IMG/VR virus record: IMGVR_UViG_3300029286_000236
Location: 1-24,836 of that record
DNA length: 24,836 bases
Strand: one strand, 5' to 3'
Origin: a virus
Part shown: positions 2,252 through 21,390 of the stretch, piece after piece
Numbering within the stretch: position 1 is the first letter of the stretch
Layout of the letters: each line of letters opens with the position of its first letter
Made by a program: the position numbers and the translations under genes
The notes under the pieces: generated by a model
What the model saw: only the letters and a program-made list of their open reading frames with translations
Told to the model about the DNA's origin: nothing
The model's database searches: none

Positions 2252-2287
2252 CGTCCTTTCGTATGCAATTGCCTTTATGCATATTTG
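2252..2287 (+). promoter_or_regulatory. Composite late promoter 1 (packaging operon)
   Basis: CGTCCTTTCGTA (2252-2263) is followed after exactly 16 bp by CATATTTG (2280-2287), a one-base variant of the Bacteroidetes -7 box TAnnTTTG. The same arrangement occurs at 7132 and 21355. TTTC at 2257-2260 sits where a -33 TTTG box would be. Two copies of the palindrome GCAATTGC lie in the spacer (2265-2272) and from the last base of the -7 box (2287-2294). The leader to the ATG at 2320 is about 30 nt. Confidence 0.75.
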
Positions 2288-2319
2288 CAATTGCAAATTA
2301 ATTTTAAATCTATATTAAT

Positions 2320-3255
2320 ATGAAAAAAGCAATCGAAGATTATTTAAAAACTGACCGTACGTATGAAAAAGGAGTTCAACTCTATCATAAACACGGCTTA
2401 AAAATGTCACTAAAAAAACAGTTGAATGTTCAGGCTGAAAGCGATTACATGAAAGGAATTCTTTTCGAGGAATTTCGTGAAATGCTTGGGATATCGGCTT
2501 TAGAATTAAAAAACATTCTGGCGCATCCAGTTGTTCCATTAAAAATAGTTACTATTCCGGTAAAATTAACTCCATTACAGGAAATTGAATTACTTTTTAT
2601 GGAAATTAAAAATTATGAAATTTTAGGAGATCTTCCAGCAATAAAAAAAGCTCTTAGTAAAATAGATGTCCTGATTCCGGCAGCTGGTGGAGATGTTCAT
2701 ACGAAGTTTTTAAAAATCGCAAATGAATTTAATTATACAGATGATCCTAAAAAGGTTCCGGTAGATATTAAAAGAGCAATTAAGTTGCGCGATGAATTTC
2801 CCTTCTTAAAAGAGGCAGATTGCCCTGCAGAATTAAAGATATTGGTTGCAGACATGCTAACTGCTTACGAAACATATAAAGCCGCTCACGAAACTTTATT
2901 TACCGTTCAGGGTGAAGAAGAATTACTTGACACAGTTAAAGAAGTAGTTGAAAAATTCATTGAGAACCGTGAAATATGGGATGAGTTGAATTATTATAAA
3001 GAAAATAAAGAAGTACTTGGCAAGCATGTGATCTTTAAAGTAAAGAACTTACAGGAAGAAATTGACGCCATGCCTAACGCTGAACTCGTAAGTGAATTGA
3101 ATAATGCTAAGAGTAATATCTCGAAAGTTAAATCAAAAATCAGCAAAAGCAAGGGCGATCCAAAACAAAAAGAATGGTCGGACAACTTGCAATTACTAGA
3201 GATCAGAAAAGAAAAAATTGAAAAACGACTTGGCATTGTTCCTAAAAAAAGATAA
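2320..3255 (+). CDS. Phage protein of unknown function, coiled-coil C-terminus
   Basis: This is the first gene of the packaging operon, with 311 residues and no signal peptide or membrane segment. The N-terminal 60 residues (Tyr-Glu-Lys-Gly-Val-Gln-Leu-Tyr and a Leu/Lys-rich stretch) and the predicted helices throughout suggest an all-alpha protein. The last 80 residues (about 230-311) are highly charged with coiled-coil character and end KKR. I do not recognise the family, although proteins of this look occur beside terminases in Bacteroidetes phages (recollection, not checked). Its place just before the PLD-like and TerS genes suggests a packaging, DNA-binding or scaffold-like role. The gap to the next gene is 9 nt. 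Confidence 0.85.
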   Translation: MKKAIEDYLKTDRTYEKGVQLYHKHGLKMSLKKQLNVQAESDYMKGILFEEFREMLGISALELKNILAHPVVPLKIVTIPVKLTPLQEIELLFMEIKNYEILGDLPAIKKALSKIDVLIPAAGGDVHTKFLKIANEFNYTDDPKKVPVDIKRAIKLRDEFPFLKEADCPAELKILVADMLTAYETYKAAHETLFTVQGEEELLDTVKEVVEKFIENREIWDELNYYKENKEVLGKHVIFKVKNLQEEIDAMPNAELVSELNNAKSNISKVKSKISKSKGDPKQKEWSDNLQLLEIRKEKIEKRLGIVPKKR

Positions 3256-3264
3256 TAAAAAATA

Positions 3265-3852
3265 ATGGCTTTCTTCTCCCTGAATGATATTGCTACTAAG
3301 CCAGAAATTAATACTGATGACCGTAGCGATATACTCAGGGAGAATTTTTTAAATATACATGAACAAAAAGTCGAAAGTCTTAAAGAACTTAATGGCTTAT
3401 TTCCACTTGACAGGGAAATATTCTTTTTGTGGACTGTTAATAGTTTTAACGCTTTCACTTTTATTCCTTATATTATTAGATATCATAAGCAGATTGATCA
3501 TTTGATTATATCAACTTATAGTATCACAACCAGAATTATTGATTCGTTCATTAAGTATGTTGACCGCAAACAAATTCTAAAGGTTGATATGCTGATCAGC
3601 GATTCGGTTAAATTCAGAATACCTAAAGTTGTGGATCATCTTGAATCTATGATTAACAATAGGAGTGATATCAGAATTATTTATGGTTGGAATCATTCAA
3701 AAGTTACTCTAATGCAAACTGGTAATAATTATTTTATAGCTGAAGGCTCAGGTAACTGGAGTGAGAACGTAAAGAATGAACAATATATTTTCTTAAACAG
3801 TAAGCAGGTTTTTGATTTTCGAGCTAAATGGATAACTAATGGAATTAACTGA
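3265..3852 (+). CDS. PLD-superfamily (HxK) nuclease-like protein
   Basis: The product has 195 residues. Its C-terminal part carries a phospholipase-D-like signature: His144-x-Lys146, then Gly-Ser-Gly-Asn at 161-164 and Asn-Glu at 171-172. In PLD-family nucleases the corresponding elements are HxKxxxxD, GS-x-N and N-x-E. The Asp of the HKD box is replaced, since HSKV is followed by TLMQTG. Only one motif copy is present, as in dimeric Nuc/BfiI-type nucleases. The N-terminal part has an alpha/beta look (LIISTYSIT, strand-helix). Family membership is from motif reading; nuclease activity is inferred and less certain because of the missing Asp. Its place directly before the terminase genes resembles the HNH nucleases that assist end cleavage in other phages. 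The last 14 nt overlap the TerS gene, suggesting translational coupling. Confidence 0.72.
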   Translation: MAFFSLNDIATKPEINTDDRSDILRENFLNIHEQKVESLKELNGLFPLDREIFFLWTVNSFNAFTFIPYIIRYHKQIDHLIISTYSITTRIIDSFIKYVDRKQILKVDMLISDSVKFRIPKVVDHLESMINNRSDIRIIYGWNHSKVTLMQTGNNYFIAEGSGNWSENVKNEQYIFLNSKQVFDFRAKWITNGIN

Positions 3853-4750
3853 AAAGCAAATTGAAGATATCGAAAAACTTGCAGGATGCAATTATACTCC
3901 TGAAAAAATAGCTTTATATCTTGGTATTCCTGAAACTGAATTCATGCAGGAATTTGCGGACACTGAGTCTAAAGTTTATTATCATTTCAATCGTGGCTTA
4001 CTTATCGCCAATGCCGAAATGGATATGACATTGCTCGAATCGGCTAAGAAAGGTAATATCACAGCTTATCAAACCCACAAAAAAGAATCTTTTTATCAGA
4101 AAATTGAAAATTCTAAAAAAAGGATCTTCATTCAAAACGAACTGAAGAATATAGATCGCCTTCAACTTCTTGTTAATAATGGCGAATGTAAAGATATGTC
4201 GCCGGCCGATGAATTATATTACAAGCAACTTGACTTTGTCCGGGCATTATGGGATAAAATGAATAATAAAAATTTTATCGTTAATGCTTTGGTAAAGTCC
4301 TTTCAGGTAAAGGAATGGAAAGCTATTGAACTTTTTAATGATTCTCTTAATTTTTTTAACCAGGACAAAAAAATTAAAGCTGATGCCTGGTCTAATATTT
4401 ATGCTGACCGACTTGATGTTGTTGCTTCTGTTTTGCTTGAAATAAACGACTTTGACCAATATTTTAAATATACAAAAGAAGCTGCATTAATGCGTGGTGT
4501 AGGAAAAGAAAAACCGCAGGAAGTTCCTGCAGGTTTCTATGATCAACGTCCTACATTTTATTCTATGCGTCCGAAGGATGTTGGCTTAATTGAAATTGAC
4601 AGAAATAAATTAGCTAAATTTATTGATAAGTTAATAGATATTCCTGCCGATGAATTGCAACGCTTACACAGGGATGCAACTACTGGTAAATTTGAAAGTA
4701 ATGTTTTTGACGTTCCTTTTTCCGATATCGAATATATAGATGAAAAATAA
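3839..4750 (+). CDS. Terminase small subunit-like protein
   Basis: The product has 303 residues. Residues about 5-45 form a helix-turn-helix-like segment (YTPEKIALYLGIPETEFMQEF). It is followed by a helical stretch with the pattern typical of small terminases, in which a hydrophobic run leads to a small residue, Lys-Lys-Gly-Asn and Ala (LLESAKKGNITAYQ, about 66-79). TerS recognises packaging sites on phage DNA and hands them to TerL. The protein is longer than the usual 140-200 residues; the extra C-terminal 150-200 residues are unassigned and may bind TerL or the portal. It overlaps the upstream gene by 14 nt and TerL by 11 nt. The call rests on the HTH, the helical pattern and its place immediately before TerL. 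Confidence 0.7.
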   Translation: MELTEKQIEDIEKLAGCNYTPEKIALYLGIPETEFMQEFADTESKVYYHFNRGLLIANAEMDMTLLESAKKGNITAYQTHKKESFYQKIENSKKRIFIQNELKNIDRLQLLVNNGECKDMSPADELYYKQLDFVRALWDKMNNKNFIVNALVKSFQVKEWKAIELFNDSLNFFNQDKKIKADAWSNIYADRLDVVASVLLEINDFDQYFKYTKEAALMRGVGKEKPQEVPAGFYDQRPTFYSMRPKDVGLIEIDRNKLAKFIDKLIDIPADELQRLHRDATTGKFESNVFDVPFSDIEYIDEK

Positions 4751-6431
4751 AATATCTCCGGAAGAATTTCAGATACGCTATTCCAACTGGGTTGCCCAGA
4801 TGATTGATATTATTAAGCCTAAAGACTTATTTGTTATTGGCGGTCGCGGAATTTCTAAAACAACTGATATATTAGCAAAAAGAAGTATTGATATAATCTA
4901 TGAAATGCCTCGCGCTACATTCATGATTGTTTCTGATACTTATGTAAATTTACTTACTAATATCATTCCTGAATTACGCACCGGATGGGAACGACATAAA
5001 TTTCTTGAACGTGTTGGCACACTTCCTGGTCATTATGTTGTAGATAAGGAACCGCCACAAGACTGGCCACGTCCTTATACTCCTGCTTCTGAATTTAAAC
5101 ATACTATCCATACTTTCAATGGTTGTAAATTTTTAAATAAAAGCCTTGATCGTCCATCCATGGGAGCTGGCGTTTCAGTGCAACATATGTTCGGAGATGA
5201 AGCTAAATATCAAAAAGAATTAAAATTAAAAAAGTTTCTTCCAACCCTGCGCGGTGATTATATCAAGTTTCGTAATTGCCCTCACTTTATGGGAAAAACA
5301 TTTCTTACTGACATGCCTAATCCTTCTGAGGGAGATGATCCATGGATTTTGGAAATGAAAAAAGAAATGGATGCTAAACAGATCGTTCATATCTTTTATA
5401 CAGCAATAATTGTTAATGAAATTGAATTTGAATTATACACGGCAAAACAACAGCAGGCTTCATCTGTTACTATTGAGAATATACAACGGAAATTAACACG
5501 CTGGAAAGAAAGACTTAATTTTATTCGTAAAGATAGTACATTGTTCTTTATTGCCAGTTGTCTTGCCAATATTGATGTTCTTACATTTGAATATCTTCTG
5601 AGTAATATGACTAATTATGAAGAATTCAAAACAGCTTTTCTCTCCATATATGCAGGAATCAGTAAAGATGCTCGTTTCTATGGGAATTTTTCAGATAAAA
5701 ATATATATACCGATGGTTATAATTACGACTATTATGATCAGTTTGGATTAAATGATAATATCTCACAAAATAGCCAGGGCTTAAAATATATTAAGCATAC
5801 TCAGGCTTTGGAAGGCGGTTTCGATATGGGTAATATGATGAGTTTGGTTATAGGGCAGGATCAGGGAAAAACATTCAGATGCTTAAAAGATATGTATGTG
5901 TTGGTTCCTGAATGGCTAAGAGAGTTAGGAAATAAATATGTTGAATTCTTTAAACCGCATAAGTATAAGATGCTTGAACTCTATTACGACCGTGCAGCAA
6001 ATAACTATGCTAAAGCAAAACAGGATGCTGCTACTCAATTAAAGAATGCAATTGAAAAGGATGCTGCAGGTGCAAGCACAGGATGGACTGTAAAACTTAT
6101 GAGTATAGGACAAAAGAATATTACTCACATGGAAGAGTTCGACCTTATGAACCAAATGATGTCGGGTAATAACAGATCGTTACCTGACCTTATGATTGAT
6201 AAACATGAGTGTAAAGAACTGATAAGCAGTATAAGGTTAGCGCCTATGGAGAAAGATAGTAAGGGAGCTATTAAAAAGATTAAGAAGAGTGAGAAACTTC
6301 CTTTATTAAGACTACCAATGGAGAGTACTAATATGAGTGATGCATTCAAATATTTAATGTGTAGAAAAAAATATTTGAATTTAGTTAAACACAAGAAAAC
6401 AGTTGGCTTTGCTGATAGTACAATAAGATAA
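4740..6431 (+). CDS. terL: Terminase large subunit (TerL)
   Basis: The packaging motor has 563 residues, with an N-terminal ATPase and a C-terminal RNase H-fold nuclease. The Walker A motif is GGRGISKTT (34-42), in which Ser stands where Gly usually precedes the Lys. Walker B is HMFGDE with Asp153 and Glu154. The nuclease half shows acidic residues in the expected order: Asp362 (GGFDMG), Asp417 (YYDRAANN) and Asp487 (MIDKHE). Length and order fit TerL proteins. In known phages TerL cuts concatemeric DNA and pumps it through the portal. The gene overlaps TerS by 11 nt and ends the first late operon; a 740-nt gap without a convincing gene follows before the next promoter. No strong terminator is visible after it; only a weak 5-bp stem lies near 6450-6470, with six T at 6487-6492. 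Confidence 0.93.
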   Translation: MKNKISPEEFQIRYSNWVAQMIDIIKPKDLFVIGGRGISKTTDILAKRSIDIIYEMPRATFMIVSDTYVNLLTNIIPELRTGWERHKFLERVGTLPGHYVVDKEPPQDWPRPYTPASEFKHTIHTFNGCKFLNKSLDRPSMGAGVSVQHMFGDEAKYQKELKLKKFLPTLRGDYIKFRNCPHFMGKTFLTDMPNPSEGDDPWILEMKKEMDAKQIVHIFYTAIIVNEIEFELYTAKQQQASSVTIENIQRKLTRWKERLNFIRKDSTLFFIASCLANIDVLTFEYLLSNMTNYEEFKTAFLSIYAGISKDARFYGNFSDKNIYTDGYNYDYYDQFGLNDNISQNSQGLKYIKHTQALEGGFDMGNMMSLVIGQDQGKTFRCLKDMYVLVPEWLRELGNKYVEFFKPHKYKMLELYYDRAANNYAKAKQDAATQLKNAIEKDAAGASTGWTVKLMSIGQKNITHMEEFDLMNQMMSGNNRSLPDLMIDKHECKELISSIRLAPMEKDSKGAIKKIKKSEKLPLLRLPMESTNMSDAFKYLMCRKKYLNLVKHKKTVGFADSTIR

Positions 6432-6732
6432 TCTTTCTTAAATATATGGGCGATCCCCTGAAATAGGTCGGGCTTTATGCTGTATCTTTTTTAATCCATT
6501 GCGAGTAAACAATTCATTCGTTTCGTTTCATTACATTCGAGACATGCAGTATAGTACCGCATGATCCTCTCATTTCATTAACACTGCACTACATTCTTTG
6601 ATTACTTCGCAACCCACAACAAACCTGTATATAATAAGCCATACGAGATATGACAATATTATATACAGTATTATTATTTTGCCATTATAAAAAAGTATGC
6701 CGCTACAATCCCTATCGCAATAAGGCAATTGC

Positions 6733-6763
6733 AATCCGATTAGATGAGTACTGAATCCGATTA
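6733..6763 (+). repeat. Direct repeat AATCCGATTA x2
   Basis: AATCCGATTA occurs at 6733-6742 and 6754-6763, a period of 21 nt (two helical turns), preceded by the palindrome GCAATTGC at 6725-6732. The spacing would suit a protein binding one face of the helix, but two copies are few. Confidence 0.55.
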
Positions 6764-6938
6764 CAATTATTTTTTTTGTTTAACATTATAAAAGTTGAGC
6801 CAACATTTATAATGGTTGCAAAATTAAAAGGTGTGCTTCGCACGACTTATATGGTGGCATTTTCTGTCATATATCCGCCAATACAACCCCTTGCAATTGC
6901 CCTCTCAAGGTAGAGCGTGTCGTTTGTTGTTGGGGTTT

Positions 6939-7111
6939 GTTGCTTTTAAAAAAGCAACATAAAAGGTTAGGTAGCAGAAAATAAAGATTTTAATTTATAA
7001 ATTTTCTGTAAAAACGTAAAATGTTAATGTTTTTAAAAAGAAAGAGCAACTTTTTTTCTTTTTAAGTGCAAGAAAAGATAAAAAGTTGATTAAAAAAGAA
7101 AACTTGCTGCC
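6939..7111 (+). ncRNA. Candidate structured RNA between terL and the portal operon
   Basis: Four pairings can be drawn. GTTGCTT/AAGCAAC is a tight hairpin (6939-6958). CAGAAAAT pairs with ATTTTCTG (6975-6982 with 7001-7008). A long hairpin at 7047-7088 starts with perfect CAACTTTTT/AAAAAGTTG and continues about 7 more pairs after one mismatch. GGTAGCAG (6970-6977) could instead close the whole domain with TTGCTGCC (7104-7111), using two wobbles. No -7 box for a dedicated + strand promoter is visible, so it would be part of the TerL transcript. AT-rich hairpins arise readily by chance, which limits confidence. Confidence 0.35.
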
Positions 7112-7131
7112 ATCCCGCCGATTAATATTTC

Positions 7132-7167
7132 TGTCCTTTCGTAAATTTTAATTCTAACTTATGTTTG
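7132..7167 (+). promoter_or_regulatory. Composite late promoter 2 (head and lysis operon)
   Basis: TGTCCTTTCGTA (7132-7143) is followed after 16 bp by TATGTTTG (7160-7167), a perfect TAnnTTTG -7 box. The ATG of the first gene is at 7172, only 4 nt beyond the box, so transcription should start at or next to the start codon. Confidence 0.8.
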
Positions 7168-7171
7168 CAGC

Positions 7172-7453
7172 ATGGAAACAATTCCTTTGTATCAGGCTAT
7201 TGAAGAAATGCGGAAACTAACTAAGGCTAAAAAAAGCTTTTCATTTGTTCATGCTACTTATAATAGAGATACAAGAAGTACTGACGGAATAAGAAATGTA
7301 AAAAGCGCCAGATTGCGGCCTAAGACTTCTAATGAGGAAATTGCTTACTCTGATTTTAAATTGTTCTATTATGACGAAGATCAACAATTGCCGCGTAACT
7401 GCTGGCAACCGCTGATTATGTTTTTTAATGGAAAAAAAGTTATACTTACATGA
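7172..7453 (+). CDS. Small conserved phage protein upstream of portal
   Basis: This 93-residue protein has the layout short helix (LYQAIEEMRKL), FSFVHATYNRDTRSTDG, charged segment with ARLRPK, then KLFYYDEDQQ-PRNCW-LIMFFNGKKVIL. I recognise the general pattern from small genes before portals in Bacteroidetes phages (recollection only); no function is known to me. The start is fixed by the promoter: the -7 box ends 4 nt before the ATG, so the mRNA is probably leaderless. The stop overlaps the portal start (ATGA), indicating coupling. Confidence 0.8.
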   Translation: METIPLYQAIEEMRKLTKAKKSFSFVHATYNRDTRSTDGIRNVKSARLRPKTSNEEIAYSDFKLFYYDEDQQLPRNCWQPLIMFFNGKKVILT

Positions 7454-8832
7454 AAGTTGCAAAAGCCGGAAGGCATTCTTTTGTTTTAAGCGATGTTGGC
7501 TGTTATTATTTTGAGACGGCAGCTACTTATAACGTCGCTCAACCCGGTATAATGCGTTTTGACAGCAGTTCTTCTCATCCTTTAAATCCTTTGCGCATTG
7601 CTGATTTTAATATTATTCCCCGCGGCGACTCGAATAATTTCCCTGATGAACTTAGGCAGATACTTGATGAAGCTAATGTAACGCCCGGAGTTATTGAAAA
7701 ACAAGTTGGATTACTTTGGGGACAAGGTCCTGCTCTTTATAAAGTAATTTATGAAGAAGGAAAACGCCGAAAAGCTTATGAAGAAGATAAAGAGATTGAG
7801 AACTGGTTAAAATCATGGGATTACATGGAATATCTGATAAAGGCAATGATAGATTTCCGCCACATGAACGGGCATTATACCAAGTATTTTCGTAACCGCG
7901 CTCCACGTATTGGCGGAGCAGGAAGAATTGAACGTCTTGATCATGAAAGTTCTTTGTATTGCGCATTGGAGTGGCCAGATGCCAGCAGGAATATTAATCA
8001 TATTATTGTTGGTGACTTCGCGCAACCCTGGAAATACGGACTTAGATCATATCCGATTTTCAATAAAGAAAATCCGTATCAGTTCCCTGTATCCATGCGG
8101 TATAGCAATATGTATTCGTTTGCCCTGGATAATGATTATTCCCGTCCTGCTTTTTATGGTACCCTAAATTGGATCAAACTTGCAAATTCGCTTCCTAAAC
8201 TTTTAATGAACTATAATACCAATGCTTCTGCATTGAAGTTCCATATTGAAGTACCTGTAGTTTATTGGCAGGATAAAAAACAAAAATTGATGGATCAATG
8301 CCTGCTTAAAGGTATTGAATATACTGATAAAATGTTGGAAGATCTGAAAGAAGAAATTTTTATAAAATTCGCCGAAACTCTTTCGGGTATTGGTAATGTT
8401 GGAAAATTTATTACCACTGATATGATTTTTGATGATGCTTCAAATCAATATATAGGATGGAAAATTACTCCTATTGATCAGAAGATACTTGATTTTGTGA
8501 ATGCTCAACTTGAAATTTCAAAGCGCGCTGCTCTTGAAACTACAGTTGGGATGGGTTTACATCCTGCTTTGAGTAATATATCAAGCGATGGCAACCTTCC
8601 GTCAGGTAGCGAGCAACTTTACGCTTTTAAGTTATACTTGATGACAGGGGTGGAAATACCAGAGATGATCGTTTGCCAGGATATTAATAACGCTATTGAA
8701 GTCAATTTTCCGGGCAGGGGTCATAAACTTGGATTTTATCATGATACTGTACTTACTGAAGAAATGACCAGTCCGAAAGACAGAATCAGAAATTCGGGAC
8801 CGGATGTTAAAACTAATCAAACAAAACCGTAA
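7450..8832 (+). CDS. Portal protein
   Basis: The product has 460 residues. The N-terminal third carries the signature of portals from Bacteroidetes phages: PRGDSNNFPDELRQIL, then TPGVIEKQVGLLWGQGPALYK (about 57-98). In tailed phages the portal is a dodecameric ring at one capsid vertex through which TerL packs DNA and onto which the tail is built. The helical LEISKRAALETTVGMGLHPALSN region (about 357-378) and the polar, Pro-rich C-terminus also fit. The length is within the normal 400-550 range. It overlaps its neighbours by 4 and 1 nt, so the operon is tightly coupled. Assignment is by pattern and by position after TerL, without a similarity search. Confidence 0.82.
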   Translation: MKVAKAGRHSFVLSDVGCYYFETAATYNVAQPGIMRFDSSSSHPLNPLRIADFNIIPRGDSNNFPDELRQILDEANVTPGVIEKQVGLLWGQGPALYKVIYEEGKRRKAYEEDKEIENWLKSWDYMEYLIKAMIDFRHMNGHYTKYFRNRAPRIGGAGRIERLDHESSLYCALEWPDASRNINHIIVGDFAQPWKYGLRSYPIFNKENPYQFPVSMRYSNMYSFALDNDYSRPAFYGTLNWIKLANSLPKLLMNYNTNASALKFHIEVPVVYWQDKKQKLMDQCLLKGIEYTDKMLEDLKEEIFIKFAETLSGIGNVGKFITTDMIFDDASNQYIGWKITPIDQKILDFVNAQLEISKRAALETTVGMGLHPALSNISSDGNLPSGSEQLYAFKLYLMTGVEIPEMIVCQDINNAIEVNFPGRGHKLGFYHDTVLTEEMTSPKDRIRNSGPDVKTNQTKP

Positions 8833-9917
8833 TGATATTCAATAAAAATGGCACCGGCGCAACGGAAGTAAAGGACCTAATGGGCTTTACTTATGCTTCT
8901 ATTAATTTTAAAAATCTTTCTCCTTATATTGAATTCCCTGAGCGCGATATCATAAATAATATTGTAGGACAAACATTGTTTACTGCTGTTCAGGCGCATT
9001 ATGACAGCGCTAATTATAAAGCTACTCCTATTGCTATGGTTCCGACGCCTCCCGGCGAATCAGGTCCTGCTAAAATAATACGTGAAGCCTTAAATGCTGC
9101 TAATGCAGTGTTAAATGCAAAATATGCTTTACTTGATTCACTTGTTTTAAAACTGCAAAGCCCTATTATTCGCCATGCTCTGCGAATGTATATGCCGAGT
9201 TCGGATGTGCAGCATACCGAAGCAGGACGATCTATTACTGTTACAGAGACTCAGAAGCCGGCTTTTGAATGGCAGGTTGAAAAGGATAATGCAAATATGC
9301 TCGATCTTGCTCACAGAGCGGAAGAATTACTTATTGAATTTCTTTTTCTTAATAAAAATTCTGTTCCATTAGATACCTTATGGAAAGATACAGATGCCGC
9401 TAAAGCTTTGACAAGTGGATTTATCAATTCTGCCGTAGAATTCTCCAAAATATTCTTTATAAATAATTCTAAACGGGTATTCCTCGCTGTTTCGCCGATT
9501 ATGCAGGAAAAACTTCGTGATATTATTCAGCCTGGCTTCCTTGCTGCCGATTATGATACAATAATTACCGCTATACAAGCAGGCAGTGTTACAGGAGAAA
9601 CTAAAACAATGCTTGATAAGGCTTCTGTTCCTTTGGCTTATTATACGATGGCTGACGCTTTAAAACAGTTCAGCGTTGAAATACTTCCTAACGGCGTATT
9701 CCAGAATTATTATACCAATGCTGTTTCATCAAAAGCAATCGCCAATAGCACTGACAGGCTTGGTTTGTCGGCTTTTATTGAAAGAAAAGCTGATATCGAA
9801 TTTAAAAAACTACAGGAGTTTCTTTTAAAACGTTCTACGATAACGAGCGGTGAAACGTACGAACCTGAAGTATTAACAGATAGAATGGATTCAGATAATT
9901 TATTTTTCAGACCATGA
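8832..9917 (+). CDS. Candidate capsid or head-tail connector protein
   Basis: The product has 361 residues and follows the portal with a 1-nt overlap (TAATG). The N-terminus has the pattern INFKNLSPYIEFPERDIINNIVGQTLFTAVQAHY (about 24-57), which I associate with an uncharacterised Bacteroidetes phage family placed near portals (possibly DUF6712, from memory). A weak internal similarity is visible between this part and the second half (VEFSKIFFINN..., MQEKLRDIIQPGF). No HK97 capsid motif, protease or scaffold can be recognised. Because no other gene here looks like a major capsid protein, it is a candidate for that role, but a connector/adaptor is at least as likely. It contains no signal peptide or membrane segment. 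Confidence 0.75.
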   Translation: MIFNKNGTGATEVKDLMGFTYASINFKNLSPYIEFPERDIINNIVGQTLFTAVQAHYDSANYKATPIAMVPTPPGESGPAKIIREALNAANAVLNAKYALLDSLVLKLQSPIIRHALRMYMPSSDVQHTEAGRSITVTETQKPAFEWQVEKDNANMLDLAHRAEELLIEFLFLNKNSVPLDTLWKDTDAAKALTSGFINSAVEFSKIFFINNSKRVFLAVSPIMQEKLRDIIQPGFLAADYDTIITAIQAGSVTGETKTMLDKASVPLAYYTMADALKQFSVEILPNGVFQNYYTNAVSSKAIANSTDRLGLSAFIERKADIEFKKLQEFLLKRSTITSGETYEPEVLTDRMDSDNLFFRP

Positions 9918-10438
9918 ATGAAAGAGAAATAAACCTGCCTGCCGGTAGGCAAGATAAGGATGATATTATAATTGATCCTATCAAAGAACCGGAAACCATA
10001 AGCGAAAAGACTTATAACCGTTCACTAAAAAGGGATATTGATTTTCATAGTAAATTCCTTACTGAACTCATTCAGGAATATATAAAATTCAAGAATAAAA
10101 ATTTCGGTGAAAACAAAGGTTATATTATTCATAAACCCGATGTAAAAGGTCTTTATTCATATCTGAATTTTAAATGGAATGCGTATTGCGCAAAAGCCAA
10201 GTTTAGTCGTAAACATAAATATAATCCAAGTAATAAATGTTTTGTTGAAGAAATAAAAAAACATAATGCAGCGCATTCAAAATTATGTTGGATAAATTAT
10301 GTGATGATGCTCCTGAAGGCTAAGTATACCATAGAACCTAACATCGGCAGGCTTGCTGAAATTTACCGCGAAGATTATCTTCCGGAAGATGCTTTAATTG
10401 ATATTTTTTGTTCACATCAAATTAATTTGGAATACTAA
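9914..10438 (+). CDS. Phage protein of unknown function, with an LPAGRQ repeat insert
   Basis: The protein has 174 residues and is basic and tyrosine-rich, with mostly helical character. It is likely a structural or assembly protein by position, but I do not recognise its family. The start (ATGA overlap with the upstream stop) is secure, yet residues 8-13 are LPAGRQ. These are encoded by a palindromic Bacteroidetes interspersed repeat (9936-9951) inserted in frame near the N-terminus, where it is evidently tolerated. Cys residues occur at 92, 109, 127 and 166, without a clear metal-binding spacing. The stop overlaps the next start (TAATG). Confidence 0.8.
   Translation: MNEREINLPAGRQDKDDIIIDPIKEPETISEKTYNRSLKRDIDFHSKFLTELIQEYIKFKNKNFGENKGYIIHKPDVKGLYSYLNFKWNAYCAKAKFSRKHKYNPSNKCFVEEIKKHNAAHSKLCWINYVMMLLKAKYTIEPNIGRLAEIYREDYLPEDALIDIFCSHQINLEY
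9936..9951 (+). repeat. LPAGRQ-type short interspersed palindrome inside a gene
   Basis: TGCCTGCCGGTAGGCA is a 16-nt palindrome except for one G-T pair. This sequence and its translation LPAGRQ are familiar as a repeat scattered through many Bacteroidetes genomes. Here it lies in frame in codons 8-13 of the gene at 9914. Confidence 0.8.
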
Positions 10439-11349
10439 TGCATACACTTGAGATACCGGATAAAAAAATAGTTATCAATTTTCCTGAGAAAGTGGACGAA
10501 CTAAGCCCTGAACAGGCTGTATTCTTTATGAATCAGGTAATGTTATACCAGGCAGGAACCATTGATCTGAGCGAGTTTAAAATCCGCATAGTTTATCATT
10601 TGCTTGGGATGAAACAAAGCTGGAAATATGCTGCAATGCTGCCTGAACAGAAAGAACAGGTTTGGACTAATATTTACAGGCTTTCGGAAGTAATTGATTC
10701 TTTTTTTATTCCCGGCAAAGATTCTAAGGGTAATGATACAAAGGTTATTGACTGGAACACTACGAAAAATCTGCTTCCTGTTATTGGAAAGTTTTACGGT
10801 CCTGCGGATGCGCTGTTAAATCTTACTTTCTATGAATATAAGGAAGCGCATTCATGCTATATGCAGTATTACGAAACTAAGGATGAAAATTTTCTTAATG
10901 AATTGATTGCTATTCTCTACAGACAAAAGAAAAGATTCTTATTTATCCTGAAATATTTGCCGAAATATGACGGGGATATACGCAGGAAGTTTTCACCCAA
11001 AACAAATCCGGAGTACCTGGCAAAAAGAACGGCTGAAATAACTAAGATTTCTCCTGCCGAAAAGCAGATCGTGGTATTGTATTTCGGGAATTGTCTGAAT
11101 TTTATCAGTACCGGTAAAATAAATATTGACGGAAAAGAAATTGATCTAAGTATTTTGTTTAAAAAGGGTTCAGAAGAAGGTTCAAAATCCGATATCGGAA
11201 TGGCCGGATTGCTTTTTACCCTGGCTGAAAGTAAAGTGTTCGGAAATATTGATGAAACCGCAGATGTAAACCTTTATACAGTGCTTGCCCGTTTATATCA
11301 GTTAAAAATGGATTCCGAAGAATTAAAGCGGAAATATGATAAGAATTAG
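10438..11349 (+). CDS. Phage structural/assembly protein, unknown
   Basis: The product has 303 residues. It begins with a short beta segment (TLEIPDKKIVINFPEKVDELSPEQAVFFMNQVMLY) followed by helices (FKIRIVYHLLGMKQSWKYAAM). This layout looks familiar from Bacteroidetes prophages, though no function is known to me. Later features include AILYRQKKRFLFILKYLPKYDGDIRRKFS (about 160-189), a helical segment around residue 200, and a charged C-terminus. The N-terminal design, a small beta unit then helices, is loosely like tail assembly chaperones, but the tape measure is 10 kb away, so that role is doubtful. The 3' end overlaps the next gene by 14 nt. Confidence 0.8.
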   Translation: MHTLEIPDKKIVINFPEKVDELSPEQAVFFMNQVMLYQAGTIDLSEFKIRIVYHLLGMKQSWKYAAMLPEQKEQVWTNIYRLSEVIDSFFIPGKDSKGNDTKVIDWNTTKNLLPVIGKFYGPADALLNLTFYEYKEAHSCYMQYYETKDENFLNELIAILYRQKKRFLFILKYLPKYDGDIRRKFSPKTNPEYLAKRTAEITKISPAEKQIVVLYFGNCLNFISTGKINIDGKEIDLSILFKKGSEEGSKSDIGMAGLLFTLAESKVFGNIDETADVNLYTVLARLYQLKMDSEELKRKYDKN

Positions 11350-11794
11350 AACATATAAAACTTATTTCGATAGTATTAAAACGCGTATTACCAATATTGA
11401 TACGGTTTTTATTGTTAGTCATCAGGATCAACTTGCGAATAAGATTCGTGAAGTGGCCGCCGGCGAAATTATTCTTATTGTAATTGTTCCTTCTGCTGAT
11501 ACCAATGCTGCCGATGTTAACAATATCATGGAAAATAATACCGGTATCATTTATCTGCTTAAAAAGATTGATATCACGAATATGACCGATGATCTGTTTG
11601 TGGATGAAATGGAAGAAACGCAGGATATTATGACAGCAATAAAAACAATGATGACTGATGATGCAAGCGACCATCAGGCAAATCATTTCATGCATTATTT
11701 TGAACCTAACGGGATGCATACTGATCCTGAATATAATTATTTAGGCTGCAACGGATGGAGTTTGTCGTTTAACATTGTTAATAAAGGGTTTTAG
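11336..11794 (+). CDS. Candidate tail terminator / head-tail completion protein
   Basis: The protein has 152 residues. An alternating strand-helix pattern begins with a strand and helix on a self-contained domain (YFDSIKTRITNIDTVFIVSHQDQLANKIREV), followed by a strongly hydrophobic strand (EIILIVIVPSAD). It has acidic helices in the middle and ends with a strand-rich segment containing GCNGWSLSFNIVN. The size and alpha/beta layout fit tail-terminator or joining proteins of siphophages, and its place after connector candidates agrees. No specific motif proves this. The start overlaps the previous gene by 14 nt, and its TAG stop shares one base with the GTG of the next gene. Confidence 0.75.
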   Translation: MIRIRTYKTYFDSIKTRITNIDTVFIVSHQDQLANKIREVAAGEIILIVIVPSADTNAADVNNIMENNTGIIYLLKKIDITNMTDDLFVDEMEETQDIMTAIKTMMTDDASDHQANHFMHYFEPNGMHTDPEYNYLGCNGWSLSFNIVNKGF

Positions 11795-11973
11795 TGAATG
11801 AAGAAGATGTAATAAAATTAGCAGAGAGACAGAAAAAAGATAATCCTGATAAGTTTTTCTTTGTTATTAAAAACAAATCAGGATGTATTGAAATAATTGA
11901 AAGTATTACTGAAGAAAGGAAAAAAGTATTTGATATTAATAAAACAAAATACGAAATAATTAAGACTTTATGA
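11794..11973 (+). CDS. Small charged protein with GTG start
   Basis: A 59-residue frame starts at GTG (11794-11796), whose first base is the last base of the previous stop. It ends at 11971-11973, overlapping the next ATG by 4 nt (ATGA). The sequence begins with an acidic helix (NEEDVIKLAERQKKDNPDK), followed by FFFVIKNKSGCIEII and a Lys-rich tail. No family is recognised. The two-sided overlap exactly fills the space between neighbours, which argues that it is a real, translationally coupled gene. No in-frame ATG occurs anywhere in it. Confidence 0.7.
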   Translation: MNEEDVIKLAERQKKDNPDKFFFVIKNKSGCIEIIESITEERKKVFDINKTKYEIIKTL

Positions 11974-12230
11974 CTGAAATTTTTGGAATAATAGTTACTG
12001 TTTTACTTTCTATTACCGGCATCCTACTTAACCGATTTGTTAATAGTATTGATGAGTTAAAAAAGATTGTAGAAATGATCCGCATTGAATTAAGCGGTAA
12101 AAATGCCGCATGCGTAGAAAAGCACACTGCTCTTAATGGACGGGTAAAGCAACATGAAATAAAATTAAATGAACTGAACGATAAATTCGAGGAACATGAG
12201 AAGGAAATCACAATTTTAAAAACCAAATAA
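11970..12230 (+). CDS. Small membrane-anchored coiled-coil protein of the lysis cassette
   Basis: The 86-residue protein has one N-terminal hydrophobic segment (about 4-24) followed by a long, charged helix/coiled coil (25-86, with the heptad-like ELNDKFEEHEKEITILK). This layout is like XhlA-type or other holin-associated proteins, though XhlA has its membrane segment at the C-terminus. It directly precedes a holin candidate and the M23 lysin, so a role in lysis or lysin export is inferred. No signal peptidase site is evident. Confidence 0.78.
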   Translation: MTEIFGIIVTVLLSITGILLNRFVNSIDELKKIVEMIRIELSGKNAACVEKHTALNGRVKQHEIKLNELNDKFEEHEKEITILKTK

Positions 12231-12240
12231 ATTTAAACCC

Positions 12241-12786
12241 ATGAAAAAAATCACATTCATTTTACTGCTATTTATTGCAGGCGGAATTTATGGTCAAAAT
12301 TTGACCACAACTGAAAAACTATCAAAAGTCTTTGAGAAAAAACTTGACACCAAAACAAATCCTAATCTTTCATTACGAATTATTCAACAGGATTCAACAA
12401 TTAAGGCATTAAAGGATACAATTACTGCCAAAAATGTTATTATTAAAACAGTGCCTCAAAAACCGGAAACTGGAAGCAAACCTATTGCATGGATTGATTA
12501 TTTTATTGCCCTGGGAGCTTTTATTATTCTTTGGTTTTTATCAAAACTCAAGTATTTACAAACTATTAATGTTCCTATAATACAAAGATTTGTATCAGAA
12601 ACATCTTCATTTATTAATAAGATTCAACAGATATGCGTAGTCTTTTCTGTTATTATACCAATAATAATCGGACTCGGAGTTTTTAGCGGCTATGTGCTTT
12701 CAATATTTGGGAATTTTGAAATAATTTTCCTTTCTATTGCAGGGTTTACACTGTTTACAACAAAGAGACCTGACCTTCAAAAATAA
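12241..12786 (+). CDS. Holin candidate with signal peptide and three membrane segments
   Basis: The 181-residue protein has an N-terminal signal sequence (1-18, cleavage likely after Gly18). A polar stretch (19-82) with short helices ending before the membrane follows, then hydrophobic segments at about 83-102, 131-152 and 153-172. The C-terminus is short and basic (KRPDLQK). Holins are small membrane proteins that open the inner membrane for lysin release; the number of segments and the gene just before the M23 lysin fit that role. The signal peptide and the periplasmic domain are unusual, so it may be a spanin-like or lysis-control protein instead. The spacing to the lysin start is 1 nt. 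Confidence 0.72.
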   Translation: MKKITFILLLFIAGGIYGQNLTTTEKLSKVFEKKLDTKTNPNLSLRIIQQDSTIKALKDTITAKNVIIKTVPQKPETGSKPIAWIDYFIALGAFIILWFLSKLKYLQTINVPIIQRFVSETSSFINKIQQICVVFSVIIPIIIGLGVFSGYVLSIFGNFEIIFLSIAGFTLFTTKRPDLQK

Positions 12787-12787
12787 T

Positions 12788-13222
12788 ATGGCAACAAAAC
12801 CTATAAGACGAGGAGTTATCACTTCAGGATTTGGAGAACGGATACTGCAAGGTAATCGGGAATTCCACCCAGGGATAGATATTTCTGTAGTTGGAGTCCC
12901 TGATAATATTCCGGTATATGCTGCAAAAAACGGCAAAGTGAAATATTTTAATAATGATATTTCAGCAGGAGTTAATGCCGGAGGTGGATTCGGAAGGGTG
13001 GTTTATTTACGACTTGCTGATGGCTGGTTTGCGATTTACCCACATCTTTCGCTGATTAATGGAGATTTACATATTAACGATCAGGTAAAAGAAGGTGATT
13101 TCATAGGAATAATGGGGAATACAGGACATTCTTTAGGAAGACATCTTCATTATGAGGAACGCCCACAATTAAGCCCAGGCGGGGCGCGAATGCCACAAGA
13201 TATTTATGATTTATATGTTTGA
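12788..13222 (+). CDS. M23-family peptidoglycan peptidase (phage lysin)
   Basis: This 144-residue protein is a single LytM/M23 metallopeptidase domain. Zinc and catalytic residues are complete: His27 and Asp31 (HPGID), His86 (YPHL) and the HLH motif at His119/His121. The start of the fold, ITSGFGER, is typical. M23 enzymes cut peptide crosslinks of peptidoglycan. No signal peptide is present, so holin-dependent release is expected. I chose ATG 12788, 1 nt after the upstream stop; an earlier in-frame ATG at 12737 would add 17 residues overlapping the holin candidate and is less likely. It belongs to the lysis cassette with the genes before and after it. Confidence 0.9.
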   Translation: MATKPIRRGVITSGFGERILQGNREFHPGIDISVVGVPDNIPVYAAKNGKVKYFNNDISAGVNAGGGFGRVVYLRLADGWFAIYPHLSLINGDLHINDQVKEGDFIGIMGNTGHSLGRHLHYEERPQLSPGGARMPQDIYDLYV

Positions 13223-13223
13223 T

Positions 13224-13745
13224 ATGAAAAAACTATTCCTTTTACTTGTAATCATTCTATTGCTTGCTTCATGCACCACTCAGAAGCATTGTAATAAACG
13301 TTTTCCCTGCACCGGCAGGATTGATACTATTATTAAGACCGATTATAGAGAAGTTCTGAAGGATACTACTATTTACCTTACTGACAGCGCCTGGGCGCAG
13401 ATGTATTTTGAATGCAGCAAAGACGGCGATGTACTCCTGAAACAGATTCTCGAGCTTAAAGCAGGGAAGTATGTTACTCCAAGAATTATCTATAAGGATA
13501 AAATGCTTTATGTGGAATGTAAGGTTGATAGTGTTGGGATTCTATTGCATTATAAGAATATCCTGATAAAAGAGTTCCAGAAGATTGATAAAACAACCGT
13601 TGTAAAGGAAAATTACCTTACCGGCTGGCAATGGTTCCAGCTTTGGGCGGGCAGAATATTCCTTGGTTTAATTATACTCATATTGATTTATCTTATAATC
13701 CGCAATTCGTTGCGGGTTAATAGATTTTTTAAGCCTCCAAAATAG
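13224..13745 (+). CDS. Lipoprotein with C-terminal membrane segment: u-spanin candidate
   Basis: The 173-residue protein starts with a lipoprotein signal peptide and lipobox (LASC, Cys17). It has a polar periplasmic middle (about 18-130) and one strong hydrophobic segment near the C-terminus (about 140-160, in WAGRIFLGLIILILIYLII), then a basic tail. Outer-membrane lipid anchor plus inner-membrane C-terminal helix is the defining layout of unimolecular spanins such as phage T1 gp11, which fuse the membranes in the last step of lysis. The position straight after the lysin supports this. ATG 13224 was chosen because the lipoprotein signal starts there; an in-frame ATG at 13206 overlaps the lysin. 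It is the last gene before the operon's terminator. Confidence 0.8.
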   Translation: MKKLFLLLVIILLLASCTTQKHCNKRFPCTGRIDTIIKTDYREVLKDTTIYLTDSAWAQMYFECSKDGDVLLKQILELKAGKYVTPRIIYKDKMLYVECKVDSVGILLHYKNILIKEFQKIDKTTVVKENYLTGWQWFQLWAGRIFLGLIILILIYLIIRNSLRVNRFFKPPK

Positions 13746-13806: not shown

Positions 13807-13850
13807 TGTTTGATAAACATTAAATTGTTAATAACTTTTATTATTTTTCC

Positions 13851-13881
13851 TTGCGTATTAGTTTAAACTAATATATCTTTG
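13851..13881 (+). promoter_or_regulatory. Promoter of the accessory operon with palindromic operator in the spacer
   Basis: TTGCG (13851-13855) is a plausible -33 region and TATCTTTG (13874-13881) a perfect -7 box. The entire 18-bp spacer (13856-13873) is a perfect palindrome. The leader to the first gene is about 60 nt. The late-promoter 12-mer is absent. Confidence 0.75.
13856..13873 (+). promoter_or_regulatory. 18-bp perfect palindrome, likely operator
   Basis: TATTAGTTTAAACTAATA is self-complementary over 18 bp and lies exactly between the -33 and -7 boxes. A dimeric repressor bound there would block RNA polymerase. I found no second copy in the window, and the regulator is not identified. 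Confidence 0.7.
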
Positions 13882-14530: not shown

Positions 14531-14532
14531 TC

Positions 14533-17856: not shown

Positions 17857-18312
17857 ATGAAACTACCAAAATTTCTTCTGGCATTTGACCGGGACTTTAT
17901 GCGTAAATTTATTATTCATACGCAAACACCTATTGCTATTTGTGAAGCAATTGAAAACGACATTGAAGTTTTAATTGTAGAAGAAACCGATAATGAACGA
18001 AAAGCAGGATTGACAAATAGAGTAAAAGATTGGTATAAATCAGTAAATAAAAAGGACTTCGCACCGCCAACAAAAGATACATTTCTATTATCAGTGGATC
18101 CAATTAATAACGAACTTTACATTTTACATCGGAACTTTCCGGCTTGCCTTATATGGGTAAAACAGGAAATACCTATGCGCTTTGTTATACAAGATTTATA
18201 TGATGAAGTTGAAAATAATAATGAAATATTAAACATGCCTTTCGTTCAGGCAGCAAAAGATTTTTTTAAGAAATATTCAGAATCTATTATGGGAGGTAAG
18301 CATGACAACTAA
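17857..18312 (+). CDS. Accessory-operon protein, unknown
   Basis: The 151-residue soluble protein begins MKLPKFLLAFDRDFMRKFIIHTQTPIAICEAIENDIEVLIVEE, an alpha/beta start. It continues with a helix (DNERKAGLTNRVKDWYKSVNKKDFAPP), a strand pair (TFLLSVDPINNELYILHRNFPACLIWVK) and an acidic helix at the end. I do not recognise a family. It lies 19 nt after the IbrB-like gene on the same operon, and its 3' end overlaps the next gene by 11 nt. Confidence 0.78.
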   Translation: MKLPKFLLAFDRDFMRKFIIHTQTPIAICEAIENDIEVLIVEETDNERKAGLTNRVKDWYKSVNKKDFAPPTKDTFLLSVDPINNELYILHRNFPACLIWVKQEIPMRFVIQDLYDEVENNNEILNMPFVQAAKDFFKKYSESIMGGKHDN

Positions 18313-19366: not shown

Positions 19367-19963
19367 ATGAGAAAAATATTATTCGCTTTATGCTTTATTA
19401 TGACTATTGGCGCACAGGCGCAGGAATTTAAAGATAAAATCATTACAATAAAAAATGATACTATTACCTGCCAGATAACAATGATTAACGATGATAATAT
19501 TTTCTTTAATATAATTAATAGAGGGAATAATCATACCAGTAAATATCTTTCATTGGTTGAAATAAAATCATATTATGCAACTAAAGATAGCAAACCTGAA
19601 ATACTTACAAGCATAAAACCTGATAGTACAGGAAAAGCAAATATGCCAAAATCAATACAATTTAAAGAAATTAAAAAAGATACTCTGCCTCATATTTCGG
19701 AAAGGCTTAACCAATCCTTGCAATATCAATATGATGCAGGTTTATATTTAAAGAAAAGCGTTGATAATTCTATTGCAGCTTCTGTTATTGGTTTAATTTC
19801 ATCAGGTGTTGCTATTGCTTTATTTTCTTCAGGAGAACCTGAGGCAGGATATGTTTTTATGGGAATTGGTGGAGTTTTTTCTATAGGATTATCCATTTCT
19901 GCTATAATAAATAGATATAAAGCAAGTAACTCTTTAATGAAAAATCAAACTCTTATAAAATAA
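19367..19963 (+). CDS. Exported protein with C-terminal membrane segments (cargo)
   Basis: The 198-residue protein has a signal peptide (1-19, cleavage after the alanine of AQA). A beta-type segment follows (DKIITIKNDTITCQITMINDDNIFFNIINRG), a pattern common in Bacteroidetes envelope proteins, and two hydrophobic stretches near the end (about 138-156 and 161-180). No phage-structural similarity is apparent. Together with the next gene it looks like lysogenic-conversion cargo acting in the host envelope; I infer this from export signals and location. Exact function unknown. Confidence 0.8.
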   Translation: MRKILFALCFIMTIGAQAQEFKDKIITIKNDTITCQITMINDDNIFFNIINRGNNHTSKYLSLVEIKSYYATKDSKPEILTSIKPDSTGKANMPKSIQFKEIKKDTLPHISERLNQSLQYQYDAGLYLKKSVDNSIAASVIGLISSGVAIALFSSGEPEAGYVFMGIGGVFSIGLSISAIINRYKASNSLMKNQTLIK

Positions 19964-19974
19964 ATCTTAACCTT

Positions 19975-20589
19975 ATGAAAAAATTATTATTCATTATTAT
20001 TATGCTTCATTCATTGCAAGGGTTTTCGCAACAAATTGATGTTTCCTTCGGGAAAACAACAAAATCCGAAAAACAATTATGCTTTGGAGTAAATTACAAG
20101 CCACCTATTAAACCTTTAGGATGGTATTTTAATTTTTATGGTATGAATACATATCAGTCCTATGACGATGGTGTTGATTATAGTGATATTTGTGATAAAA
20201 CTTCTATTACAACTGATACAGAAGGTAATAACAATTTTGGGATGAATTTAGGATTATTATATAATCTTTTCAATAAAAATGAAAAATATAAGAAAATATT
20301 TTATATAATGAGTGGTATTGGTTATTGTTGTATACAAGAAATATCAACCACACATTATTATTATCAATGGTTGCAATTTCCGGATCTTAATGAAGGCAGA
20401 ACGGTTACTTTTTTATCCAAATATCAATTTTCCCCAACTATAGAATTGCTTGGCAATATAAATATTCCATTACATAAATCCCCAATAACATTTGGTATTG
20501 AAAGTGGTATAAATTCAAGTATGGGATTCGTTTTTATGGGTTATATTGGGTTTAATTTGGCAAATTTTCATAAAAATAAATCTATATAA
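19975..20589 (+). CDS. Exported beta-barrel-like protein (cargo)
   Basis: The 204-residue protein has a signal peptide (1-19, ending GFSQ). Its mature part is rich in Tyr, Phe, Gly and Asn with alternating hydrophobic residues (VDVSFGK, WYFNFYGMN, FGMNLGLLYNLF, FYIMSGIGYC) and an aromatic-containing end, GYIGFNLANFH. These features suggest a small outer-membrane beta-barrel. It starts 12 nt after the preceding gene and probably shares its transcript. Role unknown; surface change of the lysogen or superinfection exclusion is a possibility only. Confidence 0.78.
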   Translation: MKKLLFIIIMLHSLQGFSQQIDVSFGKTTKSEKQLCFGVNYKPPIKPLGWYFNFYGMNTYQSYDDGVDYSDICDKTSITTDTEGNNNFGMNLGLLYNLFNKNEKYKKIFYIMSGIGYCCIQEISTTHYYYQWLQFPDLNEGRTVTFLSKYQFSPTIELLGNINIPLHKSPITFGIESGINSSMGFVFMGYIGFNLANFHKNKSI

Positions 20590-20615
20590 ATTTACATATA
20601 ATCTAAATTTTATAT

Positions 20616-20623
20616 TATCTTTG
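20616..20623 (+). promoter_or_regulatory. -7 box of the 20782-21257 transcript
   Basis: TATCTTTG (20616-20623) is a perfect TAnnTTTG. No clear TTTG lies at -33 (TTTACA at 20591-20596 is the nearest). The small hairpin ATCGCT/AGCGAT (20629-20646) begins in the expected 5' end of the RNA. Confidence 0.55.
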
Positions 20624-20690
20624 CCCCCATCGCTCCCAAAAGCGATAGTTCTAAAACGTTGAAAAAATGATTATTAATAACTCTTATATA

Positions 20691-20775
20691 GAGGGAACCC
20701 TCTTAGGATTGCAGGCTTCGGCTTGCAGCGGCTTCAACTCCGTGGAACGTCCTAAGGGGGTTCTCTCTTTAGGAG
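20691..20775 (+). promoter_or_regulatory. Large structured 5' leader with UUCG hairpin and Shine-Dalgarno
   Basis: An 18-bp outer stem (20691-20708 with 20750-20767) has no mismatches and two G-T wobbles. It encloses a 7-bp hairpin with a UUCG loop (20710-20727, c-TTCG-g) and a weak second hairpin (20729-20749). AGGAG (20771-20775) follows, 6 nt before the ATG at 20782; this is a good Shine-Dalgarno, rare among genes here. CTCC at 20738-20741 in the second loop is complementary to it. The part around GCTTCAACTCCGTGGAACGTCC resembles interspersed repeats, so the element may be repeat-derived. Confidence 0.6.
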
Positions 20776-20781
20776 ACAAAA

Positions 20782-21090
20782 ATGGAAAACAACCAAAACA
20801 CGGTAACAAGGGAAATAAATATTGAACCCTTAGCCGATCTGCTCACCATGCGTACCGCAACCGACTGGTACGAAGAATTAGAAAAAATTATCAGCGACAT
20901 CAACCTCACCAACCTGGATGAAATATTCCATGCGCATGAAATTGATGTAAGCAGTTTTAAAAGCAAAACGGAATACTACCACATTATCCAGAAACCGGTA
21001 GTAAGAGTTTTTGAAAATAACCTGCTTACGCTCTACATGCTTCGCGATGCGTTTAAAGAAATGCTTGATAAGGAAAGGGGGGAAGAATGA
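20782..21090 (+). CDS. Small soluble protein behind structured leader, unknown
   Basis: The 102-residue, mostly helical and acidic protein contains INIEPLADLLTMRTATDWYEELEKIISDINLTNLDEIFHAHEIDVSSF, a hydrophobic central segment (ENNLLTLYMLRDAFKEML) and no signal peptide. I do not recognise a family. Unlike its neighbours it has a clear Shine-Dalgarno and a strong 5' structure, which suggests its translation is controlled. Its stop overlaps the next start (ATGA), and the pair ends at the terminator at 21280. Confidence 0.8.
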   Translation: MENNQNTVTREINIEPLADLLTMRTATDWYEELEKIISDINLTNLDEIFHAHEIDVSSFKSKTEYYHIIQKPVVRVFENNLLTLYMLRDAFKEMLDKERGEE

Positions 21091-21257
21091 AAATAATATT
21101 TGAATCAGAACAAGAAAAAAGTGAGTATTTATTATGCATTATTCATCTGCTGAATGTATTTTTTAAACTACCTGATAAAAAAGAAGCCGCTCAGTCGGCT
21201 GATAGTTTGGTAATGATGACTAATAATATTGAGGTAAAACCATCTCCTGATAACTAA
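21087..21257 (+). CDS. Small protein coupled to the 102-residue protein
   Basis: A 56-residue frame starts at ATG 21087, overlapping the previous stop by 3 nt, and ends at 21257. It encodes an acidic start (FESEQEKSEY), a hydrophobic segment LLCIIHLLNVFFKL (about 15-28) and a polar tail ending VKPSPDN. Coupling and a terminator 23 nt downstream support a real gene. The hydrophobic stretch is short for a membrane helix. Function unknown. Confidence 0.65.
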   Translation: MKIIFESEQEKSEYLLCIIHLLNVFFKLPDKKEAAQSADSLVMMTNNIEVKPSPDN

Positions 21258-21279
21258 CAATAGTTATTCCTCCGGGAGC

Positions 21280-21306
21280 GCCCCTGTAAAAAACAGGGGC
21301 TTTTTT
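21280..21306 (+). terminator. Strong rho-independent terminator
   Basis: A perfect 8-bp GC-rich stem, GCCCCTGT (21280-21287) with ACAGGGGC (21293-21300), has a five-A loop and is followed by six T (21301-21306). It isolates the upstream gene pair from the late promoter at 21355. Confidence 0.95.
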
Positions 21307-21354
21307 GTCTTATGCCTTATCCCTTGTCAACTTATTAACTTCCGTTTCAATTCC

Positions 21355-21390
21355 TGTCCTTTCGTATCCCACCACTTTGAAATAATTTTG
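21355..21390 (+). promoter_or_regulatory. Composite late promoter 3 (tail operon)
   Basis: TGTCCTTTCGTA (21355-21366) is followed after 16 bp by TAATTTTG (21383-21390). The ATG at 21395 lies 4 nt beyond the -7 box, as in promoter 2. The 12-mer is identical to that at 7132. Confidence 0.82.

Follow-up and report, generated by a model that had tools for sequence, protein, structure and literature searches.

A fixed-register promoter box before the late operons of a Duneviridae-like phage fragment and its relatives, with a candidate phage-encoded activator

Introduction

The timing of late genes in phages of Bacteroidota appears undescribed, and a virus fragment from IMG/VR (record IMGVR_UViG_3300029286_000236, positions 1 to 24,836; this whole 24.8 kb stretch is referred to as the window) raises the question of how it might be set. 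A short sequence recurs there before the packaging, head/lysis and tail operons, each time at the same distance from a -7 promoter element. The first-pass annotation had taken this arrangement for a late regulon, driven by a phage activator or by RNA polymerase altered by a phage protein. The question is thus threefold: whether the element is real, how far it extends among related phages, and which protein reads it.

Judging by sequence, the three sites are very probably late promoters of a regulon spread over a whole phage family, and it is likely that a phage-encoded specificity factor reads them. The best candidate for this reader, favoured with moderate confidence on its position and conservation, is a protein encoded at the junction of early and late genes, to which we will refer as the “junction protein.”

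Late boxes in the window

The sites and their -7 boxes are the following:

2252 to 2259, plus strand: late box copy 1, CGTCCTTT, its 12-mer CGTCCTTTCGTA running to 2263; before the packaging operon
2280 to 2287, plus strand: -7 box CATATTTG of copy 1; start codon at 2320
7132 to 7139, plus strand: late box copy 2, TGTCCTTT, in the 12-mer TGTCCTTTCGTA; before the head/portal operon
7160 to 7167, plus strand: -7 box TATGTTTG of copy 2; ATG at 7172, 4 nucleotides (nt) downstream, predicted leaderless
21355 to 21362, plus strand: late box copy 3, TGTCCTTT, in the 12-mer TGTCCTTTCGTA; before the tail operon
21383 to 21390, plus strand: -7 box TAATTTTG of copy 3; ATG at 21395, 4 nt downstream, predicted leaderless
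13846 to 13853, plus strand: possible weak fourth copy, TTTCCTTG, in the 12-mer TTTCCTTGCGTA (10 of 12 matches), in exact register
13874 to 13881, plus strand: -7 box TATCTTTG of the possible fourth copy

The annotated 12-mer was indeed found at 2252, 7132 and 21355 with exactly 16 nt to the -7 box. Its 11-mer GTCCTTTCGTA, starting at 2253, 7133 and 21356, is followed each time by 20 nt and TTTG, and this composite pattern (GTCCTTTCGTA-N20-TTTG), present three times in the window, arose in none of 1000 dinucleotide shuffles. The 11-mer alone, also present three times, appeared once in 5 of the 1000 shuffles, and the reversed-pattern control gave no match in the window record. The copies precede the packaging, head/lysis and tail operons, as annotated. 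A box of the TAnnTTTG type is present at all three copies, that of copy 1 (CATATTTG) being one base off. The promoter of copy 1 occupies the same position as box-bearing promoters in Cellulophaga phage Ingeline (38902) and Flavobacterium phages 6H (20547) and laban (26905), and copy 2 has an identical register ahead of the homologous gene in L183, L188, L190, L193, L205 and L215.

The further claim that accessory promoters lack the 12-mer is weakened by TTTCCTTGCGTA at 13846, in register before the accessory operon; with its two mismatches, this site may be due to chance. The spacer between the weak box and TATCTTTG holds a perfect palindrome, ATTAGTTTAAACTAAT (13857-13872), a possible operator, which can be compared with AATTAGTTTAAA ahead of the homologous operon in 6H.

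Conservation among related phages

A portal alignment (A1) recruited 80 loci with flanks of up to 10 kb, forming 53 DNA clusters. Two of its six rows came from loci first found via the motif, and therefore one or two of the 53 clusters are not independent; the remaining loci were recruited by protein similarity alone. Every 7-mer at distances of 8-44 before TTTG was then scored, and this unbiased search placed TGTCCTT-N25-TTTG at the top (15 of 53 clusters vs 0.44 expected), followed by GTCCTTT at N24; GTCCTTT peaks only at N23 and N24, and the same search on the minus strand gave nothing. In the viral collection, the exact 12-mer followed by A..TTTG at distances of 4-34 peaks at the window spacing (11 of 73 stretches, at least five of the 11 belonging to related phages). 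The motif with its spacing (TGTCCTTT, N23-24, TTTG) was also recovered in 24 of 28 full records, amounting to more than 60 sites, about 2-6 per record, all on one strand of the record, while the reversed control gave 0 in these 28 records.

The conserved unit is shorter than first annotated. Among 99 distinct TGTCCTTT sites, gathered with a loose box pattern in which the core bases after the first were fixed by the search, the first base of the 8-mer is C in 13%, and the bases that follow TGTCCTTT vary, so the CGTA tail does not belong to the conserved core. The 12-mer as conserved unit was thus ruled out: the element itself is conserved, with the 8-mer TGTCCTTT as its core and the 12-mer as its window-level version. 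At TGTCCTTTCGTA sites of L167 (Capnocytophaga canis), L013 and L034, the -7 box stands between the two arms of an inverted repeat, AATCGGATTGAT / ATCAATCCGATT.

Random occurrence in host or phage genomes, which the first-pass annotation had named as counting against its reading, is not what the searches returned. Of 396 Bacteroidota genomes, 138 hold the pattern, mostly once, and no excess over the reversed control is apparent from the table of counts (not summed). In hosts with such prophages the sites cluster within the prophages, with five within 28 kb in Hymenobacter amundsenii and four within 18 kb in a Tidjanibacter genome. The sequence is short and isolated matches do occur in unrelated genomes, as chance or a mobile repeat would predict; the shuffles, the strand bias, the register and the spread over phages with only 20-54% portal identity contradict this explanation, which is scarcely credible.

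Promoter geometry and predicted leaderless starts

The interval from TGTCCTTT to the 8-base -7 box is 20 nt in 97 of 119 sites and 19 nt in 21. Since the -7 box of Flavobacterium johnsoniae spans T-12 to G-5 (PMC6847099), the late box would lie at about -40 to -33. The standard Bacteroidota sigma-ABfr promoter consists of TTTG at -33 and TAnnTTTG at -7 (PMC6847099, PMC7366714). The latter element is present among the 99 distinct sites (A in 93%, T in 91%, the third T of the TTTG position in 87%, the first T in only 62%). The former is not matched as TTTG: TTT and a variable base stand inside the 8-mer, and in other lineages the -33 position holds AAC, TAA or CAA. In the Porphyromonas gingivalis phages L264 and L266, TGTCCTTT late promoters often have a -7 box ending in TTTCG or TTCG, not TTTG.

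In 34 of the 99 distinct sites, ATG lies exactly 4 nt past the -7 box; with the G of this box at -5, +1 would fall on the A of ATG. About one third of the sites thus predict leaderless late mRNAs, and other sites leaders of about 14-24 nt. Such mRNAs would be expressed in a phylum where they are rare: in Bacteroides thetaiotaomicron, 3.7% of 5' untranslated regions are shorter than 10 nt (PMC7366714).

The same geometry bears on the possibility that the box is an operator, bound by a repressor which holds the late genes off in the prophage. The box does overlap the -33 region of promoters in temperate phages; however, it is non-palindromic, stands at late and not early operons, and is held at 19 or 20 nt with almost no leeway, a register that a repressor does not need, making this explanation very improbable.

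Several spacers and leaders carry further structure. Stems of at least 6 bp occur in 8 of the 99 distinct spacers vs 0.95 in shuffles. A GC-rich hairpin spacer followed by TATTTTTG or CAATTTTG is found in L190 (5890), L205 (15387), L189 (9552), L192 (13948) and L198 (13), where the promoter seems to incorporate an intrinsic terminator that ends the upstream operon, and to use the T-run of this terminator as the -7 box. In L185 (5973), L200 (1103), L237 (3499), L248 (5195) and L273 (G020), an inverted copy of the box TGTCCTTYC, GGAAGGACA, stands directly before the -7 box, yielding a hairpin of two inverted boxes. Several predicted tail-operon mRNAs, in L189 (~9588), L218 (~13134) and L257 (~120), would carry a 5' stem-loop pairing the start codon, e.g., CCATAATTC-tcg-AATTATGG.

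Switching of the box between lineages

A pooled search for a single second motif in phages without TGTCCTTT gave nothing clear, because several boxes were mixed; a per-phage search, which assumed no motif and only repetition before a -7 box near an open reading frame (ORF) start, resolved them. The boxes are lineage-specific, and all stand at the same register as TGTCCTTT:

TGTAACA (TGTAAC for short): L206, L214, L222, L233
TGTCTTAA: 6H, L204, L230-232, L238, L247
TGTCACAA/C: laban, L213, L226, L249
CGTCACAA/G: L212, L220
TGTCCATT: L229
CGCCTTGC: L234-236, L246

TGTCACA and CGTCACA are among these substitutes, which precede homologous operons (protease, packaging, portal, tail). Two phages of Flavobacterium, 6H and laban, carry different boxes (TGTCTTAA vs TGTCACAA), whereas TGTCCTTT is common to phages or prophages of Bacteroides (BT-TP2), Porphyromonas gingivalis, Cellulophaga and Hymenobacter. 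In BT-TP2 the box stands at 17977 and 25811 as TGTCCTTT and at 32316 as CGTCCTTT. The box therefore tracks the phage lineage and not the host, which argues for a phage-encoded reader, and the host sigma factor alone cannot set it.

This result weighs against the explanation by host-type promoters only, according to which the primary sigma factor of the host reads TGTCCTTT as an optimal extended -33 element, with no phage activator involved. In its favour, the -7 box is of the host type and the TTT of the box lies near -33 (PMC6847099); but phages of a single host genus carry different boxes while one box recurs across host orders, host genomes are not enriched (at least one match in the 138 genomes mentioned above), and F. 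johnsoniae promoters have a barely discernible -33 motif (PMC6847099). We consider it improbable.

A candidate activator at the early/late junction

Protein clustering across 23 phages revealed one near-universal family not evidently structural or devoted to packaging: the junction protein, of 155-266 amino acids, present in 18 of the 23 phages and also in L192, L242 and L308, records which the clustering missed. Its members include BT-TP2 gp8, Ingeline gp41, 6H gp40 and laban gp42. In 18 of 18 near-complete phages the gene is conserved at the early/late junction, upstream of the late promoters; with few exceptions, the boxes in all 18 follow the gene on the same strand, and from its stop codon to the first of them is usually no more than 550 nt. 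The branches of the family are homologous by profile comparison (E-values of 9e-7, 5e-4 and 5e-4). AlphaFold models of two branches (pLDDT, the predicted local distance difference test score, of 84.5 and 70.8) share one topology, in which an N-terminal alpha/beta part is followed by a C-terminal part of three helices, the latter with a conserved basic segment around R143. That the junction protein binds DNA is a guess from position and conservation.

Several observations weigh against this assignment, and against the regulon as proposed. Two boxes in G002 and one in G016 lie upstream of the junction protein; as further exceptions, Ingeline and one P. gingivalis phage each have one match on the opposite strand, and the record of Ingeline is permuted. 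Pfam and PHROGs reveal no recognisable DNA-binding domain in the protein, its models have no fold match in the PDB, and a PDB sequence search gave nothing significant; a BFVD structure search matched only an uncharacterised protein of Polaribacter phage Leef_1. Box type fits the junction protein tree and the portal tree equally well, so that co-evolution with the junction protein is not discriminated from vertical inheritance. Finally, the candidate gene is absent from the window, a fragment that leaves out the early/late junction region; we infer that it lies in the part of the phage genome beyond it.

A different phage reader, be it the LuxR/GerE-type early regulator phrog_10300, an unseen sigma-like factor or an RNA polymerase modifier, is possible but unlikely. 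The first of these has a GerE-type helix-turn-helix, and its Ingeline member weakly matches a family of phage sigma factors; however, it was recovered in no more than 8 of the 23 phages, among them phages with differing boxes, was missing from the finds in most TGTCCTTT phages, and was thus rejected as the common activator. Ten non-structural BT-TP2 proteins gave no sigma domain. The regulators named in the first-pass annotation, Bro-N (18805) and a 71-residue protein (18302), were rejected as well, neither having a homologue in the 22 other phages compared. The near-universal junction protein, expected outside the window, is a better candidate than either.

Phage type and operons of the window

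The window terminase is 44% identical to that of Ingeline and 41-42% to those of 6H and laban (Duneviridae), and its portal 33-37% identical to their homologues; a pattern scan for close terminase relatives found none. With terminase, portal and head genes homologous to and collinear with those of the three phages, the window phage is Duneviridae-like in gene content and order, formal genus and family criteria aside. The fragment begins directly past the position of the major capsid gene, and the region before the protease therefore falls outside it. Its operons are:

2320 to 6431, plus strand: packaging operon, with genes at 2320, 3265 (phrog_20533), 3839 (small-terminase-like position) and 4740 (terminase large subunit)
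7172 to 13745, plus strand: head/lysis operon, with genes at 7172, 7450 (portal), 8832, 9914, 10438 and 11336 to 13206, including an M23 peptidase at 12737
From 13946: accessory operon
21395 to 24836, plus strand: tail operon, with a neck/tail-completion-type gene at 21395 and the tape measure gene at 21922, which extends past the window end

About 740 nt without a credible ORF (6432-7171) extend from the terminase gene to late box 2. A collagen-like protein with GPTGA-type repeats (1242-2198) lies between the capsid-side genes and the packaging operon. L013 and the window have helicase, PAPS-reductase-like and ParB accessory genes in common (42-79% identity).

Proposed mechanism and significance

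The best explanation, held with fairly high confidence as a whole, is that of a temperate Duneviridae-like siphophage of Bacteroidota whose activator, likely the junction protein, acts on TGTCCTTT to switch on the late operons. The sites, their register, strand and operon positions, the box switches and the conservation and position of the candidate are computed observations; from them we infer transcription from the sites, binding and activation. A phage-encoded protein would bind TGTCCTTT, at about -40 to -33, in place of the weak contact that the host makes at -33, and once bound would fix the sigma-ABfr polymerase of the host on the TAnnTTTG box at -7. This would switch on the packaging, head and tail operons together, some late mRNAs starting at or beside AUG. 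The junction protein, whose gene directly precedes the first late promoter, is the most likely activator; where the box has changed in related lineages, the recognition surface of the activator would presumably have changed with it, at unaltered spacing. The late regulon first annotated finds good support in the genome comparison, through register, strand, lineage-specific box switches and a box that follows the phage; what falls away is the pair of candidate regulators it named.

If this is true, one sequence rule marks the late operons in phages and prophages of Bacteroides, Porphyromonas, Cellulophaga, Hymenobacter and relatives, a candidate master activator is flagged, and phage-derived, possibly orthogonal promoter/activator pairs become available for gut Bacteroides. 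Related viruses with the box or a substitute span gut, oral and environmental Bacteroidota, and BT-TP2 in B. thetaiotaomicron is a system in which this reading is testable. More broadly, and with a proposal that might as readily prove wrong as right, a widespread unnamed activator family without a solved fold would take over the primary polymerase of Bacteroidota at late, often leaderless promoters, its DNA specificity changing repeatedly while the geometry is kept, thereby providing a natural series of orthogonal activator/box pairs.

Comparison with known systems

The middle promoters of phage T4 (sigma appropriation with AsiA and a MotA box) carry a phage-specific, non-palindromic box near -30 to -40, which replaces the normal distal element. 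The box described here likewise stands at a fixed distance from a host-type proximal box, in place of the distal promoter element; the box, the host phylum and the gene class (late, not middle) differ, and the partner protein is here a candidate. No relative of MotA or AsiA was found: BT-TP2 gp8 has no Pfam or PHROG match, and 10 other BT-TP2 proteins have no such domain.

A regulator gene placed last in the early block, ahead of the late operons it would control, recalls the lambda Q, RinA and ArpU type. Lambda Q acts by antitermination at one promoter, unlike the several dispersed promoters with a DNA box considered here, and by sequence the junction protein belongs to none of these named late-activator families, no relation to them having been found. 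The sites resemble sigma-ABfr promoters in the -7 box and in where it lies with respect to the predicted start, and differ from them in the strong 8-mer at about -40 to -33 in place of a weak TTTG and in the frequency of predicted leaderless starts. The open full-text literature searched, the P. gingivalis phage paper included, yielded nothing on the box. The type of system, in which a phage activates its late genes through a dedicated promoter box, is known elsewhere, whereas the box family, the host phylum, the candidate protein and the switching of boxes within a fixed geometry appear to be new.

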